A DNA stretch of 64,000 nt from Rhodohalobacter barkolensis. Lineage in GTDB: Bacteria; Bacteroidota; Rhodothermia; Balneolales; Balneolaceae. The notes under the pieces are model-generated. The model worked only from the letters and a program-made list of their open reading frames with translations. It searched no databases and was not told where the DNA came from. Positions within the stretch are counted from its first letter, which is position 1. Each line of letters opens with the position of its first letter. Shown here in pieces: positions 53,530 through 61,698 of this stretch. The position numbers were made by a program, and so were the translations under genes. The stretch spans positions 186,001-250,000 of the forward strand of contig NZ_PISP01000006.1 in the NCBI RefSeq assembly GCF_002834295.1, in the 5' to 3' direction.

Positions 53530-55095
53530 CTAATTGAGGTAGAGAAAATTAAACAGAATATATATTACTCCCGGAGGCATTAGAAATACGATGGCCCAAT
53601 AAACTGAGCTTCTTAGCTTAGGCAAAAATTCAGATTTGGGTTTTTGAGCTTTTTTGCCGGCTTCATCATCCCGTTCAAAGCCCAGACGATTCATTTTACC
53701 CCAGCTCTTTTTTCCCTTAATGTAGTCGATTAAACCTACAAATCTCCACCAGGCATGTATTTGTCTGTACCCCAGGTTTTCGAGTGAAGCATACAGGGTG
53801 AGAATCAATGTATTTTTGATGCTGCCATATCTTCTGAACGTGGCCTCTTCACAAATGAGAGAGGAGACGGAGAGCAAAAAGCCCAGCAGTATGGAAACCG
53901 TTAAAAAGAGAAGAACAAACGGCTCATAGATACCCATAAAAATGATCACAAAAATAAAGTAGATGTAGCCCATCATTTCAATGACGGGACCGATCAGCTC
54001 AACAAGTGTAAAATAGGGGATCGTTGTAAGCCCCATTCTGCCATACTTCTTATTAAAAAACATGGTTCTGTGGCGCCAAATTGAATCAACCAATCCTCTC
54101 TGCCAGCGATTTCTTTGCGTAGCCAAATCATTCCAGTTTTCCGGCACTTCGGTCCAGCAGACAGGTTTGGGCAGAAAGCGAACTCTATACTCCTCATCCT
54201 GTTCTCTGAAAAATCGGTGCAGCCTCACCACCAGTTCCATATCTTCTCCAACGGAGTCTCTGGCATATCCACCGGCCCTGATCACTGATTTTCGGTCAAA
54301 AATTCCAAATGCACCGGATATAATGATCAAACTTTTAAAATAGTCCCACCCAATTCTGCCAAACAGAAAAGAGCGCAGATACTCAACCGTCTGGATTCGG
54401 GCCAGAAAGCTCTTGGGAATCCCGATCTCCTTTATTTCGTAGTTCGAAACTTTACACCCATTCGCCACGCGCACAATACCTCCGGCTGCTACAAGTCGGT
54501 CATCCAGAACAAAAGCCTGAAGCATCTGTTTTAGCACATCCTGCTCCAACAGAGAATCTGCATCAATAGAGCAGAAAAGATCGTTGGCACACGCATTGAT
54601 TCCACAGTTTAGCGCATCTCCCTTCCCTCCATTCACTTTATCGATCACAATCAAATTATCATATCGGCTTGATCTGTATGAAGTAACGATATTTTTATGT
54701 GGCAACGTAGAATGCAGCTCAATTTCAGACTCATACAGCCTGAAGTGATTTTTAAGCTTTTCAAGAGTAGAATCTGTACTTCCATCGTTTACCACTACAA
54801 CTTCAAAATCTCTATACTGAAGCTGAAGAAGTGCTTCTACGGAATCAATAATATTCACTTCTTCATTATATGCCGGAGAGATGATGGATATCGACTTATA
54901 CAGATCGGACTGAAAGACCCCCTCCGGTTCAAATACAGAATAGTACTTTTGATGTTTTCTGATATAAAACAGAGATACAACTACCATGGATAGATACGTC
55001 CCGTTCACAATCAAGAAATAGAGAATGAAAACCCAGCCTAAAGAATCTACCAGGTTGATAAATTGCTGGATGTGAGTTACAGCTTGTTCTAACAA
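53530..55095 (-). CDS. Processive family 2 glycosyltransferase (inner membrane)
   Basis: A 521-residue membrane glycosyltransferase that likely polymerises and extrudes a polysaccharide. One helix lies at about 20-44, then a cytoplasmic GT2 core with ISPAYNEE, DGSTD (104-108), the metal-binding DAD (178-180), the general-base GED (283-285) and QRNRW (327-331). These are the D, DxD, (T/G)ED and QxxRW signatures of cellulose, chitin, hyaluronan and poly-N-acetylglucosamine synthases. Two or three helices follow (about 355-415), and another near the C-terminus. No PilZ domain is fused. It is the last gene of the operon receiver-HEAT-GT2. The sugar made is unknown. Confidence 0.93.
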   Translation of the reverse strand: MLEQAVTHIQQFINLVDSLGWVFILYFLIVNGTYLSMVVVSLFYIRKHQKYYSVFEPEGVFQSDLYKSISIISPAYNEEVNIIDSVEALLQLQYRDFEVVVVNDGSTDSTLEKLKNHFRLYESEIELHSTLPHKNIVTSYRSSRYDNLIVIDKVNGGKGDALNCGINACANDLFCSIDADSLLEQDVLKQMLQAFVLDDRLVAAGGIVRVANGCKVSNYEIKEIGIPKSFLARIQTVEYLRSFLFGRIGWDYFKSLIIISGAFGIFDRKSVIRAGGYARDSVGEDMELVVRLHRFFREQDEEYRVRFLPKPVCWTEVPENWNDLATQRNRWQRGLVDSIWRHRTMFFNKKYGRMGLTTIPYFTLVELIGPVIEMMGYIYFIFVIIFMGIYEPFVLLFLTVSILLGFLLSVSSLICEEATFRRYGSIKNTLILTLYASLENLGYRQIHAWWRFVGLIDYIKGKKSWGKMNRLGFERDDEAGKKAQKPKSEFLPKLRSSVYWAIVFLMPPGVIYILFNFLYLN

Positions 55096-55122
55096 ATCTT
55101 AATGGGTCTATTTGAATTCTTA

Positions 55123-56088
55123 TTATGCAATAGCCTTTTCGAATGTGATCTCCTGATCCAGAACAAGTACAGCCTCTTTTACAGACTTCCTCACATCTCT
55201 GTCCGGATAATTTTGATATGCTTTTATACTTTCGATCGCCATTGAATTCAAAAATATGCGCTGAGAATCTATAAGTGCCGATAATACTTCAGGCTCTTTC
55301 CAAAACTCATCTTTGCTTTCAAGCCAGCTTTGAAGCGGCTTGATCATTAAGTAGTAATTTGATTCGGATACACACCGTATTAAAAGTGCTCTTTTCTTTG
55401 TTGATAAATTTTTATCAGCAATGAGCGCTACTAAAAATGCGGCCTCTTCTGTTGTCTGACTTTTATTGTCGTGCTTGAATCTGTAAAAAAGCTCCAGTAA
55501 CGCCATTTTAGAAATGCCCTCTCTTTTGGTAAACGTATCCATGGCGTGCATTCTGTCATTGAAATTATCGCTTGCCATCAGTGCAGAAGCTGCGGAGAAC
55601 GCCAGGTAGGTATTATCTGACTGAACAAAATTTCCCAAAATATAAACGACATCAGCCCTGACAATATTCGTATACCTGAAATAGTTACACGCCTCTATTT
55701 TTACGACGTCATTGCCTGCCTTAAGCTGCTTCAGATGATACTTATAGAGTGACTCAATCATCAAAAGCCTCTTTAATTTATCTGCATCTTCTCCCTCAAC
55801 ATTTTTCAACAGCTTGACTATAGTCTCTTCAAATACCCGGTATTTTAACGTATTTGAGCCAAGAAGTTTTTCGAATGTTGCTTCCTTAACATTCTCTTCC
55901 ATGTACTCAAATATCAGAGGCAAAAACGTTTCTCTATACTGATTGATTCTTTTTTCATCCCTATTTTGCTTCAACCTCATGGTAACCGTTATAACGAATA
56001 AGATGAATGTCGTCACTGTTAACAGTAAGGTTACCAGTATCAGTAACTGAATAGCCCCCTCCATTTCTACCCCTACAATCAAAAACAT
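55123..56088 (-). CDS. Membrane-anchored HEAT-like helical-repeat protein
   Basis: A 321-residue protein with one strong N-terminal membrane helix (about 12-36, EGAIQLLILVTLLLTVTTFILFVITV) followed by a basic stretch and some 270 residues that look entirely alpha-helical. The helices are arranged in pairs of about 35-40 residues (VKIEACNYFRYTNIVRADVVYILGNF, YLAFSAASALMASDNFNDRMHAMDTF, EAAFLVALIADKNLSTKKRALLIRCV, RKSVKEAVLVLDQE). This suggests HEAT or PBS-lyase-like repeats, a protein-binding scaffold. It sits between the receiver gene (25 bp upstream) and GT2 (27 bp downstream) in one operon. It may couple the phosphorylated receiver to the synthase; this is inference. Confidence 0.78.
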   Translation of the reverse strand: MFLIVGVEMEGAIQLLILVTLLLTVTTFILFVITVTMRLKQNRDEKRINQYRETFLPLIFEYMEENVKEATFEKLLGSNTLKYRVFEETIVKLLKNVEGEDADKLKRLLMIESLYKYHLKQLKAGNDVVKIEACNYFRYTNIVRADVVYILGNFVQSDNTYLAFSAASALMASDNFNDRMHAMDTFTKREGISKMALLELFYRFKHDNKSQTTEEAAFLVALIADKNLSTKKRALLIRCVSESNYYLMIKPLQSWLESKDEFWKEPEVLSALIDSQRIFLNSMAIESIKAYQNYPDRDVRKSVKEAVLVLDQEITFEKAIA

Positions 56089-56112
56089 TAATTTTTACCC
56101 TGTATTATTAGT

Positions 56113-56490
56113 TTAATTTTCCAACGATTTTTTTACTCTCATGATCAGTTCATCTGTCTCAAAAGGTTTTACGATATAATCTTTTACCCCTTGCTCAAAA
56201 GCCAGCTTTTTATCTTTCATCTTCATTGAGGCAGAAAGCATTATTACACGAACATCATCTAAATCTTCATCTTCTCTAATCTTTCTAAGCACCTCTAGAC
56301 CATTGACGCTTGGCAACATGATATCCAGAATTACCAAGTCGGGCTTGAGCTCTTTAATCGCTTCAAAACCCGAAAATCCATTTTCTCTCAACTCAAATTT
56401 GTAGTTGTTTCTCTTTAACTTAAATTCAATGAGTTTTGATATAACGGGATCATCTTCAATCAACAATACGACAGGTTCATCTAAGGTCAT
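56113..56490 (-). CDS. Stand-alone response-regulator receiver domain
   Basis: A 125-residue single receiver (REC) domain with no output domain. The acidic pocket is LIEDDP (Asp13, Asp14), the phospho-acceptor is Asp56 in LVILDIMLP, the switch Ser/Thr position is in VIMLSAS, and the conserved Lys in YIVKPFE is present. It therefore should be phosphorylatable and act by protein contact, CheY-style. The nearest kinase gene is the histidine kinase at 60156, in the divergent operon. First gene of the receiver-HEAT-GT2 unit, with 227 bp to the divergent yaiO gene. Confidence 0.94.
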   Translation of the reverse strand: MTLDEPVVLLIEDDPVISKLIEFKLKRNNYKFELRENGFSGFEAIKELKPDLVILDIMLPSVNGLEVLRKIREDEDLDDVRVIMLSASMKMKDKKLAFEQGVKDYIVKPFETDELIMRVKKSLEN

Positions 56491-56717
56491 TCTAAATTTC
56501 TTTTCTTGTTTTACTTAATGTGAAGCAACCTAGCCATATATTTTCAACATTTAATATAGCATTACTTAACAAACCGTTAGAGCAATACAGAATTCTTTAA
56601 TTTTTAGCCGGAAAAACTTGGGGTATTTTAGAAATCAACCTTCTGTTAAAAAAAGGCTTAATACTGAGTTTTATATTCTGTGTGCGTTAAAATCTTTCAA
56701 TTTCGACCTACCATGAA

Positions 56718-57521
56718 ATGACAAAAACCATAATCCTAAGCATAACTTTCTCTCTTTTAGCGATCACCCTATTTGCCCGTCAATCCTCTTCCTACGAAGA
56801 TTATCAAAGCAAAAAGAATATGGCAGCTTTTGGGCTTACCTATGATCATTATGGAGACGATCTGGAAGACTGGCAGAAGATGTTCTTCGAGTACAGAAGG
56901 CAAACTTCCGGCGGACCCATCATCGGCCGCATGAATGTAGGCCATCGCTTTGATTTAACAGATTATCAGGGAGAAATTGATTACTGGCCTGAATTCAATG
57001 AAAATTGGTATGGCTATTTAAACGTAGGCTTATCAGGTGGCGATCTCTTTCCTGAATTTCGTGCCGGCGCCGAACTTTACCGGGCATTACCTCAGGGTTT
57101 TGAAACATCCTTAGGCTTTCGCTACCTGAAGTTCAGTGAAGACGACGTTCTCATCTTAACCGCCTCAGTTGGTAAATATATTGGCAACTGGCTGTTGATT
57201 GGTCGCCCGTACTTCACACCGCAGGACTCAGGTGTTTCGTCATCATTCACATTTTTAGCCCGACGTTATTTAGGCAATCCTGATACGTTTGTAACTCTTT
57301 TGGGAGGTTTTGGCTTTTCGCCGGATGAACGTCGATTGCTGGACGGACAAGCCGATAACCGTTTTCAAAAATCCAGGTATTTAGGAGTTCGAACAAACTA
57401 CCTGGTTCAGAATCAATTTGAACTTTTTGGAGAGTTAAAATTAACCTGGCAGGAATTTCCCTTCTCGGAGAATTTCACTACAATCTCAACCTTCGAAATG
57501 GGCGGTCGTTTCCGATTTTAA
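56718..57521 (+). CDS. YaiO-family outer-membrane beta-barrel protein
   Basis: A 267-residue protein with a Sec signal peptide (about 1-21, LLAITLFARQ) and a beta-barrel body with C-terminal FRF. It matches the YaiO family: FGLTYDHYGDDLEDWQKMFFEYRRQ, GPIIGRMNVGHRF, YQGEIDYWPEFN, YLNVGLSGGDLFPEFRAGAELYRALPQGFETSLGFRYLKFS, and later VGKYIGNWLLIGRPYF. In Escherichia coli yaiO is next to genes for a glycosyltransferase and a deacetylase. Here it is divergent from a GT2 operon, which supports a role in polysaccharide transit across the outer membrane. An earlier ATG at 56713 is followed at once by a stop, so 56718 is the start. 14 bp before the next gene. Confidence 0.85.
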   Translation: MTKTIILSITFSLLAITLFARQSSSYEDYQSKKNMAAFGLTYDHYGDDLEDWQKMFFEYRRQTSGGPIIGRMNVGHRFDLTDYQGEIDYWPEFNENWYGYLNVGLSGGDLFPEFRAGAELYRALPQGFETSLGFRYLKFSEDDVLILTASVGKYIGNWLLIGRPYFTPQDSGVSSSFTFLARRYLGNPDTFVTLLGGFGFSPDERRLLDGQADNRFQKSRYLGVRTNYLVQNQFELFGELKLTWQEFPFSENFTTISTFEMGGRFRF

Positions 57522-57535
57522 TAATAGTGTAGTGT

Positions 57536-60097
57536 ATGTATTTAAAATTATCGAAGTTGCCTTTCTGTTTGGTTTTAATTATTTCTGTAATCTCTCTTTT
57601 TATTACAGACACTTCAATCGGACAGAGCTCATCACAAGACCAACCTTTCCCATTCTCTATAAATGAAACACACCTTACCGTTTGGAATGGTGAGTACTAC
57701 AGCCCACTCTTTATCAAAGGTGTGAATTTGGGAGTTGCTGTTCCCGGTACCTTTCCCGGTCAGCTGGCCGCTACAAGTGAAGATTATGCCAGATGGTTTC
57801 AGTTGATTCGAGACGCCGGTTTCAACACAATCCGGCTTTATACGCTGCACTATCCGCGTTTTTATGAAGAACTAAAGCGATTTAACGAAGCCAATCCTAA
57901 CTCTCCGCTCTTCATTATTCAGGGTGTATGGCTCGAGGAGGAGATTCCCGGTTATGATGAAAATTTAAACACTCTCACAGAACCTTTTGAACAGGAAATG
58001 GAGGAGAATATACGTGCTGTTCATGGGGATATTATCATCCCGCCACGTCTTGGAAAAGCACACGGCACCTATGTAGATGATGTTTCTCAGTGGATAATCG
58101 CCTACATAGTGGGGCGTGAAATCCATCCTCCCGAAGTGCTTGAAACCAATCAATCCAATCCCGGCACGCACTCCTTTGATGGAAATTATCTTTCCATATC
58201 AGATGTCCGGGCTTCTGAGATTTGGGTGACTGAGCGTCTTGATCATCTGCTCACGTTCGAAATGGAAAATTATGACACGCAACGACCGGTTTCGATATCC
58301 AGCTGGCCTTCGCTCGATCCAATTGAGCACCCTTATGAAGAAAATCCCTACGAAGAAAGTGCCTCGCTGGATCTAAAAAATATCAATCTTGAAAATGCCC
58401 CGGCAGGCTTTTTCGCCTCCTATCACGCTTATCCATACTATCCCAACTACATTTCACGGGATCCGCGCTATGTTGTGTTTCAGGATCATATCGGTCAGAA
58501 CAGCTACCTGGGTTATCTGACCTATCTGAAGGAGTACTATGATCACTTCCCGTTAATTATAGCAGAGTTTGGAGGATCTTCGAGCTGGGGTGTGGCTAAG
58601 TATGCCCATAGCGGAATCCATCACGGTGGATATTCAGAGCTGGAACAGGGTAAAAACAACATCCGAATGCTCGAAAATATCCACCAGTCCGGTGCGGGAG
58701 GAGGGATACAGTTCTCCTGGCTTGACGAGTGGTTTAAGCAGACATGGATTACCAATCCTTTCGATTTTATCCCGGACAGAAGGATACAGTGGCATAACGT
58801 TACGGCCGCTGAGCAAAACTTTGGACTGCTCGGATTTCGAAAACCCATTAGCCTAAACCTTTGGGAGGAGTTCGGTGAAACTGAAAAAGTTAAGCGGGTT
58901 CAAGCTCAGGCAGACTACTCTTACTTTCGATTACAGCTCGATATCGATCAGCACATACAGGAAAGTGATACCCTTTGGATATCACTGGATACTTACGATG
59001 AAACACTGGGAGAGTCCATACTTCCGGACGGACAAACCGTATCGAACAGGGCTGAATTTGCATTGATGATTACCAACTATGAGGCTGAACTATTTGTAAC
59101 TGAGGCCTACGATCTTTTTGGCATTTGGTTTAATACATCAGACACTGAGCAGCAGTATCGCTCCACTGTAACAGACGGGGCACCCTGGAATTTGGTACGA
59201 TGGAAAAATAATTTTGAAAGCGAAGATACACAGGATATTGGCCAATTAGATGTGAACAGATTAAATACACCGACCTATAGCACTGATGCCGTTCGTTTGT
59301 TTAGCGATCGCATAGAAGTGCGTCTGCCATGGTCGCTCATCAACTTCACCGATCCCAGCCGGCGTGAGGTTATGCATGATGATCGATCCACAACGGAAAC
59401 GGAGACCCAAATTTCGGATGGCATAAACATCGGAATCTTTTACGATGATTTTGAAGCCGAGACCTCAACCCGATTTGCCTGGGATTCATGGAACACCCCC
59501 GAAGACGCCGAGGAATATCCCAAAGCGAGCTACACATTCATGAAAGAGTATTTGCCTTCTCTTCCCGGCAATCCAATCGCTTTAAGCGACCAATATGATC
59601 TTGGCACGGGTGATATCAACCATATCCACTCCGGTGACGGGCTTTTACAAAATGATTTATCGCTGGATGGAATGCCTATGGAAGCTGTTTTAGTTGAACC
59701 GCCTAAACGCGGACTTTTACAGCTGGAATCGGATGGAAGTTTCTTATATTTGGCCGAGTCGGGGTTTACCGGCAATGATGAGTTTATCTATCGGGTAAAA
59801 GCCGGGTTTAACTGGTCGGATCCGGTAACCGTTTCAATGCAGGTGTCAGGTACTCCGGTAGGCAGGGGTTTTGCTGAACTCTATCCAAATCCTGTAAGTA
59901 CAACTCTCAATATTCGTTCCGGTGCTGTAATTGATTATGTTGTGGTACTCGATGTGCTTGGGAGACGTTTAAAAACCATTGACGTGAACTCAACAGAAAT
60001 TCAAATTGAAACAGATGGTCTTGCTTCCGGTGTCTATTTTGCAAGGATATTTTCCGGAGATGAATTTCAATTGAAAAAATTCGTTGTTGTTCGTTGA
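57536..60097 (+). CDS. T9SS-secreted glycoside hydrolase-like protein
   Basis: An 853-residue exported protein in four parts. First, a signal peptide (about 1-30). Second, a TIM-barrel-like domain (about 45-415) with FIKGVNLGVAVPG, WFQLIRDAGFNTIRLYT, the VGREIHP segment with Glu195 and PLIIAEFGG with Glu344. Two Glu in these settings fit the acid/base and nucleophile of clan GH-A retaining enzymes. Third, a beta-rich region (about 450-740) followed by an Ig-like domain (DGSFLYLAESGFTGNDEFIYRVKA). Fourth, a type A T9SS sorting domain starting AELYPNPVSTTLNI and ending in KKFVVVR. I cannot name the GH family. It probably trims or releases the polysaccharide of the adjacent operon at the cell surface. 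Confidence 0.82.
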   Translation: MYLKLSKLPFCLVLIISVISLFITDTSIGQSSSQDQPFPFSINETHLTVWNGEYYSPLFIKGVNLGVAVPGTFPGQLAATSEDYARWFQLIRDAGFNTIRLYTLHYPRFYEELKRFNEANPNSPLFIIQGVWLEEEIPGYDENLNTLTEPFEQEMEENIRAVHGDIIIPPRLGKAHGTYVDDVSQWIIAYIVGREIHPPEVLETNQSNPGTHSFDGNYLSISDVRASEIWVTERLDHLLTFEMENYDTQRPVSISSWPSLDPIEHPYEENPYEESASLDLKNINLENAPAGFFASYHAYPYYPNYISRDPRYVVFQDHIGQNSYLGYLTYLKEYYDHFPLIIAEFGGSSSWGVAKYAHSGIHHGGYSELEQGKNNIRMLENIHQSGAGGGIQFSWLDEWFKQTWITNPFDFIPDRRIQWHNVTAAEQNFGLLGFRKPISLNLWEEFGETEKVKRVQAQADYSYFRLQLDIDQHIQESDTLWISLDTYDETLGESILPDGQTVSNRAEFALMITNYEAELFVTEAYDLFGIWFNTSDTEQQYRSTVTDGAPWNLVRWKNNFESEDTQDIGQLDVNRLNTPTYSTDAVRLFSDRIEVRLPWSLINFTDPSRREVMHDDRSTTETETQISDGINIGIFYDDFEAETSTRFAWDSWNTPEDAEEYPKASYTFMKEYLPSLPGNPIALSDQYDLGTGDINHIHSGDGLLQNDLSLDGMPMEAVLVEPPKRGLLQLESDGSFLYLAESGFTGNDEFIYRVKAGFNWSDPVTVSMQVSGTPVGRGFAELYPNPVSTTLNIRSGAVIDYVVVLDVLGRRLKTIDVNSTEIQIETDGLASGVYFARIFSGDEFQLKKFVVVR

Positions 60098-60155
60098 TAG
60101 CAAAATATCCTCTAAGCTTTTACTCAGCTCAAAACCATATTAAACAGGAGTACTG

Positions 60156-61085
60156 TTGGAGATCAAAAAAGATCTAACCGTCACAGATGACCAGCTCAAT
60201 GAGCTGGAAATGCATTCTGTCATCAATATTTTAACTGTGATCAACAGCCAGCTTCATTTCATTCAGTTTGAGACTGACCACCCCGAATTAACCGGTCCGT
60301 TAATTGATCAAACCCTGGAGTTTGCTGATGCAGCAAGAGAAAAAGATCAGTCTGTTTTTAATGAACCAAAAATCAATGCTTTTCAGAAAGAAGTCATTGA
60401 AATGCTTGGGAATCTCAATGACCTTCAACCACTTTTAAATGACGGCTCCTCTGTTTCTGAATTTCACTCCATTTTTAATGATATATTTAAAGTGTTTGAC
60501 GACAGGCTCGAAGAGATTTTTCACCGGTGGAATCACCCCAATCGCTGGGAATCTTTTCTAATCCATGACTTTAAAGAGGAGTTTCAGAAATTCTTCTACA
60601 CCCTGGAGAAAAACAGTCGTGGCAGATACCGGATTATATACAATATCGCTCAACAAGAAGAGAAGGATTACCTTGTTCAGTTTGAAGTAAATAGCGACGA
60701 TAGTGATACCATCTACCTGCCACTGCTGATCAAAGACGTTATTCGCGATCTTGTTGCCAATGCCAGAAAATACACTCTTCCCGGTGGCAACATTGAAGTA
60801 GGAATGACACAAATTAACGGTGTGTTCAAATTTGTTGTCCAAGACAGCGGATATGGTATACCGGAAGAAGAGATTTCAAAAATAATTGAATTCGGTTACC
60901 GGGCGTCCAACGTAATAGACGAGGTTAGAACCATGGGCGGTGGATTTGGTCTGACTAAAGCTTATCACATCACTCAAAAGTTTGGCGGACGTTTTTGGAT
61001 TGATTCGAAATTGGATGAGGGAACAAAAATCACCATTGAGATACCCATACCAAAACAAATTCTTGAAAACGAAATTCATGCCTGA
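60156..61085 (+). CDS. Soluble sensor histidine kinase
   Basis: A 309-residue cytosolic protein with no membrane helix and no known sensor domain. It starts at a TTG preceded by AGGAG (60146-60150). The N-terminal helix has a candidate phosphorylation site His20 (ELEMHSVINILTVINSQL), which differs from the usual HE-x-x-x-P box. A central helical region (about 60-175) is of unknown type. The C-terminal HATPase domain is complete: N box DLVANARKYT (Asn202), G1 DSGYGIP (230-236) and G2 GGGFGLTKAY. It is the natural partner of the receiver at 56113. It is co-directional with yaiO and GH, 58 bp after the latter, and overlaps the HD gene by 8 nt. Confidence 0.88.
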   Translation: MEIKKDLTVTDDQLNELEMHSVINILTVINSQLHFIQFETDHPELTGPLIDQTLEFADAAREKDQSVFNEPKINAFQKEVIEMLGNLNDLQPLLNDGSSVSEFHSIFNDIFKVFDDRLEEIFHRWNHPNRWESFLIHDFKEEFQKFFYTLEKNSRGRYRIIYNIAQQEEKDYLVQFEVNSDDSDTIYLPLLIKDVIRDLVANARKYTLPGGNIEVGMTQINGVFKFVVQDSGYGIPEEEISKIIEFGYRASNVIDEVRTMGGGFGLTKAYHITQKFGGRFWIDSKLDEGTKITIEIPIPKQILENEIHA

Positions 61086-61698
61086 AGAGACTCTCTACAA
61101 AAAATTTCTTCTTAATAACTGTAGTTTTGATTCTGCTCACGATCTGGCACACATTCAGCGTGTCGTTAAATCAGCACAAACTATTTGTGATGAAGAGGGC
61201 GGAGATTTAGATATAGTTAAAGCCGCCGCATGGTTACACGACAGTGTCACACTTCCAAAGAATCATCCCGACCGTTCAAAATCTTCAATTCTGGCCGGAG
61301 AAAAAGCAGCAGCATTTCTAAATAGCATTGATTTTCCGGAGACTAAAGTTAAACATGTTGTACATGCAATTGAGGCCCACAGTTTTTCAGCAGGTATTGA
61401 ACCCACAACATTAGAAGCTAAAATTGTGCAAGACGCCGACCGTCTGGATGCACTGGGTGCGATTGGAGTAGCACGTTGCTTGATGGTTGGCGGGAAGCTG
61501 GATCGCGCCCTTTATCAGCCTGAAGATCCCTTCTGTGAATCCAGAGATCCGGACGATTCGATTTACACGATAGATCATTTTTACGAGAAGCTTTTCAAAC
61601 TGCCTGAGTTGATGAACACTGAGAGCGCAAAGGAGATGGCAGTTGAGAGGATTAGGTTTATGAAGCAGTTTTTAAGTGAGTTACAAAAAGAGATCTAA
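61078..61698 (+). CDS. HD-domain phosphohydrolase
   Basis: A 206-residue cytosolic metal-dependent phosphohydrolase of the YedJ-like HD type. The ATG at 61078 overlaps the kinase stop codon; the frame is open upstream within the kinase gene, but that reading is not credible as coding. Metal ligands: His in DSAHDLAHIQRVV, the HD pair in AAWLHDSV, HAIEAHSF, and Asp in QDADRLDALGAIGVAR. Substrates of this subfamily are nucleotides or phosphonates; none is certain. Its tight coupling to the histidine kinase suggests it belongs to the same regulon, perhaps hydrolysing a nucleotide signal. Confidence 0.9.
   Translation: MPEETLYKKFLLNNCSFDSAHDLAHIQRVVKSAQTICDEEGGDLDIVKAAAWLHDSVTLPKNHPDRSKSSILAGEKAAAFLNSIDFPETKVKHVVHAIEAHSFSAGIEPTTLEAKIVQDADRLDALGAIGVARCLMVGGKLDRALYQPEDPFCESRDPDDSIYTIDHFYEKLFKLPELMNTESAKEMAVERIRFMKQFLSELQKEI

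Follow-up and report, generated by a model that had tools for sequence, protein, structure and literature searches.

A stretch of 64,000 nucleotides from Rhodohalobacter barkolensis (GCF_002834295.1, contig NZ_PISP01000006.1, positions 186,001-250,000 of the forward strand; termed the window, within which coordinates are given) was found to contain two divergent operons. The minus-strand operon encodes a single-domain receiver, a HEAT-repeat protein and a family 2 glycosyltransferase (GT2), while the plus-strand operon encodes a YaiO barrel, a glycoside hydrolase (GH)-like protein, a histidine kinase-like protein and an HD-domain protein. The receiver-HEAT-GT2 core is a real conserved module. 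We consider it fairly probable that it forms a synthase-dependent polysaccharide system, in which the phosphorylated receiver gates the synthase post-translationally via the HEAT protein. An initial annotation of this DNA had proposed the divergent arrangement, and all open reading frames (ORFs) were confirmed at the positions given in Table 1.

Conservation of the core module

We analyzed 91 GT2 loci covering some sixteen phyla, with archaea among them. The loci were chosen by GT2 or HEAT similarity and represent one GT2 clade, and since they are taxonomically uneven (several are from Paenibacillus and Flavobacterium) the counts are of non-independent events. The HEAT gene was located directly upstream of GT2, or was fused to it, in 86 of the 91 loci. 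A HEAT-family ORF terminated at the GT2 start in 79 of them; among the remaining 12, HEAT was found on inspection in L046 and L106, five are fusions, L031, L039, L049 and L062 stop at a contig edge, and L107 has a partial, weak HEAT remnant at the edge. A receiver was present within 7 kb of the synthase in 79 of the 91 loci, including every one of the 28 from monoderms or archaea. When genes located within 4.5 kb of the synthase were compared to those 6-10 kb away, the density of receivers was 5.5-fold higher close to the synthase.

A GT2-based scan across the genome collection gave 80 loci in many phyla, and the GT2 was present in 24 of 58 genomes of the family and 50 of 198 genomes of the phylum. 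HEAT adjoined GT2 in 10 out of 10 HEAT-positive genomes of the phylum, R. barkolensis included. The neighbourhood search called for in the initial annotation thus found the trio conserved together, and it is also duplicated in the R. barkolensis genome. The second receiver-HEAT-GT2 trio (L006:7633-10538; C2:84633-87538) has a GT2 57% identical to that of the window, and no YaiO, GH or kinase was found in its vicinity. A locus from the same genus (L113:8443-15843) preserves the arrangement GH-HD-YaiO // receiver-HEAT-GT2. Members of the module also occur in Flavobacterium, Paenibacillus, Mesorhizobium and Stutzerimonas, which are relatives of commonly cultured bacteria. Copies with HEAT, GT2 and receiver were seen in haloarchaea (L052, L057 and L072), with a GH in L052 as well.

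The synthase and its HEAT partner

The GT2 of the window matched Glycos_transf_2 of Pfam with 84.7 bits. Its motifs D104, D178, G283-E284-D285 and QRNRW (327-331) were conserved in an alignment of 11 homologs and D180 was nearly invariant, in agreement with the processive signatures DGSTD, DAD, GED and QRNRW that had been read in the protein before. By its motifs, multiple transmembrane (TM) helices and linked barrel, the GT2 appears to be a member of the synthase-dependent polysaccharide secretion class. The PDB profile matches include BcsA and hyaluronan synthase. Two identities were rejected: the best NCBIfam match, PgaC/IcaA (TIGR03937), missed the curated cut-off for a poly-N-acetylglucosamine (PNAG) synthase with 134.4 vs. 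422.3 bits, and the cellulose synthase model for BcsA (TIGR03030) reached 35.6 bits vs. a cut-off of 699.1, with no PilZ in the protein. Any identity given to the polymer would be presumptive.

In Kaistella (L068:9962-13381) the GT2 was found to be fused with a sulfatase/LTA-synthase-superfamily domain. Long GT2 frames (about 1135-1264 residues) were likewise observed in five genomes of the phylum (G002, G012, G021, G095, and G189), and separate proteins of this superfamily adjoin the module in L027, L044 and L107. Such domains may decorate the glycan with phosphoglycerol-type groups.

The HEAT protein of the window scored 14.9 bits with HEAT_2, which is under the cut-off, while the cut-off was clearly passed by the paralog in the same genome (48.2 bits) and by relatives elsewhere (61.9 and 102.9 bits). 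Single-chain HEAT-GT2 proteins of about 950-980 residues were found in L045, L054, L082, L084, and L095, the HEAT half of L082 being weak (11.8 bits). Gene fusion and near-obligate adjacency indicate that HEAT works with the synthase, and the comparative evidence for a functional coupling of the two is strong. The TM helix of the window protein is followed by RLKQNRDEKR. By the positive-inside rule the solenoid is predicted to be cytoplasmic, i.e., in the same compartment as the receiver and the GT2 active site. The fusion was modelled from HEAT rows alone, because a joint alignment of HEAT-only and GT2-only rows misplaced the HEAT rows. The model consisted of a TM helix and an alpha solenoid, mostly at pLDDT 80-94, with Foldseek matches to alphaRep, importin-alpha and ARM proteins. 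The paralogous trio, the near-obligate adjacency and the five fusions all support the coupling of a processive synthase with a receiver and a HEAT protein anchored in the membrane, as suggested in the initial annotation.

The receiver

PF00072 spans residues 8-119 of the 125 residues of the window receiver, which in agreement with the earlier description is without output domain. The pocket is intact (E12/D13/D14, D56, S86, and K108), and both D56 and K108 were invariant in receiver alignment A3. Of 75 same-strand receivers, 58 have Asp and 16 have Glu as the acceptor residue, and 71 retain Lys108. Glu acceptors were found in the Paenibacillus-type GH loci of Bacillota (GH-HEAT-GT2-REC, where REC is the receiver), and several receivers joined to further domains have them as well. 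The receivers with Glu are those of L064, L070, L073, L087, L097, L098, L100, L102, and L104, and further those of L033, L035, L045, L054, L084, L095, and L103. A change from Asp to Glu mimics the phosphorylated state, which suggests that the phospho-form of the receiver is probably the active form.

The receiver was found in several architectures: single, double, Hpt-REC-GGDEF-REC, ODP-GGDEF-REC, and GGDEF-REC. Being the constant element among these, it is suggested to be the part that faces the synthase complex. Proteins composed of ODP (di-iron metallo-beta-lactamase-fold), a degenerate GGDEF and a receiver were observed directly upstream of HEAT-GT2 fusions (L054:6440-8485 and L084:6595-8607), and a protein at L095:6918-8558 resembles them. 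They suggest an oxygen or redox input into polymer synthesis.

In about 14 other loci a kinase gene immediately precedes that of the receiver (gap -79 to +143 bp), the types being GAF-HisKA, CHASE3-PAS hybrid, and GAF hybrid-Hpt. A plasmid locus of Mesorhizobium ciceri encodes a hybrid kinase, two response regulators, YaiO, HEAT and GT2, with an Hpt protein on the opposite strand. Because of these kinase-receiver operons, phosphorelay control of the module in general is plausible.

Predicted export and hydrolysis

The window YaiO matched PF19413 far above the cut-off of 23.9 bits and was the only YaiO of its genome in a genome search. With a single YaiO, the two synthases of R. barkolensis may share it or may make different products. 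Among the loci, whose monoderm or diderm class was assigned from the taxonomic titles of the sequence records, YaiO accompanied the synthase in 44 of 63 diderm and 0 of 28 monoderm or archaeal ones (p=3.3e-11). Its density was 16.5-fold higher within 4.5 kb than at 6-10 kb, and most relatives checked have TPR and the YaiO barrel. The restriction of YaiO to diderms fits the annotated role as a predicted outer-membrane exit.

The GH-like protein carries a type A sorting domain of the type IX secretion system (T9SS), with 43.5 bits for Por_Secre_tail (PF18962) and 38.3 vs. 23 bits for TIGR04183. No enzyme model of Pfam or NCBIfam matched the window protein or the homologs scanned, and no match to PDB sequences was found. 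Two candidate catalytic residues, E195 and E344, were invariant in 18 homologs and are likely the catalytic pair. The best match to the structural model (mean pLDDT 73) was GH157, with Z 26.7 over 307 residues, a root mean square deviation of 3.0 and 20% identity, while chains of a GH2 glucuronidase and a GH5 mannanase matched at Z 23-24, about 3 Z units lower. Since GH157 is the best match with GH2 and GH5 close behind, the protein appears to be a clan GH-A enzyme, with its specificity left unassigned. The modelled GH-A barrel is consistent with the placement of the two Glu noted in the initial annotation. Neighbours of the UDP-glucose dehydrogenase family in Paenibacillus-type loci point away from a GH157-like substrate, and any substrate could be named only tentatively.

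Nineteen loci carry the GH beside the synthase, the window among them, and the others belong to Bacillota, Gemmatimonadota, Nitrospirota, Spirochaetota, a deltaproteobacterium and a haloarchaeon; 17 genes were within 4.5 kb and 0 at 6-10 kb. In the host family all five GH-bearing genomes also have the GT2, in two of them with the GH not adjacent. This recurrence in several phyla indicates that the GH belongs to the system, as had been assumed. L027:14148-15317 and L033:11395-12540 encode an uncharacterised protein of about 380-390 residues with a membrane anchor. It has no Pfam match, by eye it resembles the N-terminal 400 or so residues of the GH in L040, L058, and L084, and it is a possible further module component.

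Proposed mechanism and alternative explanations

We propose that GT2 would polymerise a nucleotide sugar and drive the chain across the inner membrane. YaiO, which in most cases combines TPR and barrel, would take the chain over the outer membrane of diderms, and the GH-A hydrolase, T9SS-exported here, would trim or free the product. The synthase would be permanently paired with the HEAT solenoid, which is predicted to lie in the cytoplasm, anchored to the membrane. Phosphate would reach the receiver from a histidine kinase or phosphorelay whose genes are close by in some genomes and located elsewhere in the rest, and the receiver would dock onto the HEAT solenoid and switch synthase activity post-translationally, the phospho-form probably being active. 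If true, this represents a second, very widespread control logic, with a receiver acting via a helical-repeat subunit, that includes organisms without detectable GGDEF or PilZ. YaiO barrels, and HEAT proteins annotated merely as repeats, would gain a role open to testing, and an uncharacterised hydrolase family would be indicated.

Several observations weigh against this mechanism, the distribution of the neighbouring kinase (see below) among them. Receivers with a Glu acceptor are not switchable by phosphorylation, and L044, L059, and L092 are without receiver despite an adequate flank. A distance-correlation (mirror-tree) analysis showed joint inheritance and failed to separate a receiver that follows HEAT from one that follows GT2. 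No HEAT-GT2 interface could be read from the fusion model because of the low pLDDT of its GT2 half, and any contact of the receiver with HEAT or GT2 would be presumptive. A general enrichment of kinases near the synthase was rejected, as their density was the same near and far, and only the contiguous subset stands out. In L026:9252-9582 the receiver upstream of an intact HEAT-GT2 is frameshifted, with the acceptor Asp apparently being Lys; this split receiver may be a decaying gene or a sequencing error.

The tighter pairing of GT2 with HEAT than with the receiver (86 vs. 79 of 91 loci), the retention of HEAT-GT2 without receiver in some loci, and the Glu at the acceptor of 16 receivers could also be explained by HEAT being a constitutive structural or assembly subunit, like BcsB or PgaD. 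The receiver would then act elsewhere or via localisation, and phosphorylation would not gate catalysis. We find this unlikely, as the receiver is the most regular further gene, present in 28 of 28 monoderm or archaeal loci, and its Asp/Lys pocket is mostly conserved with a substitution that is nearly always Glu and not random. With respect to the origin of the phosphate, it is rather doubtful that the receiver has its dedicated kinase in the soluble one encoded nearby (60156-61085). The two are encoded in a common gene cluster and each protein lacks the other's half; the kinase is, as annotated, soluble and without receiver, its ATPase motifs are intact, and in the absence of a Pfam HisKA match it has an invariant candidate phospho-His in EMHSxxN (EMHSVIN in the window). 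However, orthologs were found in six relatives, where five neighbourhoods (L125-L129) are without the trio, three genomes with an ortholog have no synthase, and the congener G183 has a syntenic module with a different kinase nearby and no ortholog. The suggestion that this kinase phosphorylates the receiver is weak because of the unrelated neighbourhoods and the G183 module, and was not upheld. The window kinase is probably not dedicated to the module, and any kinase named for this strain would be putative.

Processive polysaccharide synthases are usually explained through binding of cyclic di-GMP (c-di-GMP). The receiver proteins with GGDEF matches are those of L033, L040, L045, L054, L077, and L084; the GGEEF is intact in L040 as well as in L058, and the GGDEF-bearing versions are from several Bacillota, Spirochaetota, and Myxococcota. 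The module could therefore have a c-di-GMP origin, where the receiver protein once had a GGDEF (Hpt-REC-GGDEF-REC and ODP-GGDEF-REC), HEAT or GT2 senses c-di-GMP, and single receivers are reduced. This is highly improbable, since most GGDEFs checked are degenerate and lack the catalytic motif, most loci have bare receivers, the GT2 is without PilZ, and the R. barkolensis genome (97.4% complete) had 0 matches to GGDEF (PF00990) and PilZ (PF07238) where control genomes were positive. A replacement of c-di-GMP/PilZ control, as proposed in the initial annotation, holds for this genome and not universally, because of the GGDEF-carrying receivers. Control other than c-di-GMP is well supported in this organism, a statement that does not cover the Bacillota loci with intact GGEEF. 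A glycan linked to lipid or wall and decorated with glycerophosphate is a very unlikely product in place of a free exopolysaccharide. The sulfatase/LTA-synthase-superfamily proteins described above would fit such a product, and two of the three adjoining ones best match phosphoglycerol transferase I of NCBIfam; but most loci, the window among them, are without such proteins, and YaiO and GH indicate an exported free chain.

Returning to the proposed gating by the receiver, we are evenly divided on whether it defines an undescribed class found across some sixteen phyla and archaea. In such a class HEAT would be the obligate adaptor by which the receiver gates the synthase, the part of c-di-GMP/PilZ would be played by phosphorylation or by a pseudo-receiver locked with Glu, the hydrolase would be a new GH-A family, and YaiO would be the exporter in diderms.

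Relation to known systems

The Bcs cellulose, PNAG Pga, alginate, and Pel systems resemble the module in having a processive GT2 (D,D,D,QxxRW), in most diderm loci a TPR and barrel exporter, and a hydrolase. The exporters of PNAG and cellulose are of the TPR-barrel type. Compared to these systems the module has HEAT and receiver instead of PilZ-type c-di-GMP control, a YaiO barrel, and an unassigned GH-A hydrolase, and its GT2 is far under the CelA and PgaC model cut-offs. The YaiO-family barrel is shared with E. coli YaiO/YaiP, as the E. coli protein matches PF19413. E. coli YaiO is encoded beside a GT2, and no receiver or HEAT partner is known for YaiO/YaiP. GH157 enzymes (LaGH157), the best fold match of the GH model, share only 20% sequence identity and no profile match with it; in line with PDB ligand titles, they are endo-beta-1,3-glucanases.

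In Myxococcus xanthus the single-domain response regulator EpsW post-translationally activates the phosphoglycosyl transferase EpsZ (PMC12802240). The module is alike in that a single-domain receiver would control a polysaccharide enzyme post-translationally. It differs in that EpsZ starts a Wzx/Wzy pathway and is not a processive synthase, and a HEAT adaptor is unmentioned in the abstract (PMC12802240). The mixed-linkage glucan synthase RiGT2 of Romboutsia is likewise a processive GT2, from a Gram-positive and with no linked bcsB, and in the sections consulted neither a HEAT nor a receiver partner is mentioned (PMC10374906). The main text of an operon survey of biofilm machineries names neither YaiO nor HEAT (PMC7112194). 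No description of the gene set was found in the open-access literature, which leaves subscription journals outside coverage, and the module is apparently undescribed.

Gene layout and further observations

By ORF reading, the gaps in the minus operon are 24 bp between receiver and HEAT and 27 bp between HEAT and GT2. The plus operon (YaiO-GH-kinase-HD) has gaps of 14 and 58 bp followed by an 8 bp overlap of kinase and HD.

Table 1. Features of the two divergent operons in the window.
Feature	Position	Strand	Basis
Processive GT2 polysaccharide synthase, multi-TM, without PilZ	53530..55095	-	PF00535/PF13641, motifs
Membrane-anchored HEAT-repeat protein, one N-terminal TM helix	55123..56088	-	Family beside or fused to GT2; HEAT_2 in relatives
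Single-domain response regulator	56113..56490	-	PF00072, 93.4 bits
Intergenic region separating the divergent operon starts, 227 bp	56491..56717	.	Sequence
YaiO outer-membrane beta-barrel, without TPR domain, predicted exit route	56718..57521	+	PF19413, 212.8 bits
GH-A-type glycoside hydrolase-like protein, immunoglobulin-like domain, C-terminal T9SS sorting signal	57536..60097	+	PF18962/TIGR04183
Soluble histidine-kinase-like protein, HATPase_c	60156..61085	+	PF02518, 65.1 bits
HD-domain phosphohydrolase, PRK10119/YedJ-like, closes the plus operon	~61078..61698	+	PF01966, 48.6 bits

The HD protein scored 227.7 bits with PRK10119, below the cut-off of 286. As HD is located between GH and YaiO in L113, the phosphohydrolase may, in this genus, be part of the module. 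The window kinase (60156-61085) and those of L125-L129 form a small family of soluble orphan kinases in varied neighbourhoods, with an H-box-like motif, EMHS[VLF]xN, that is unseen by Pfam HisKA.

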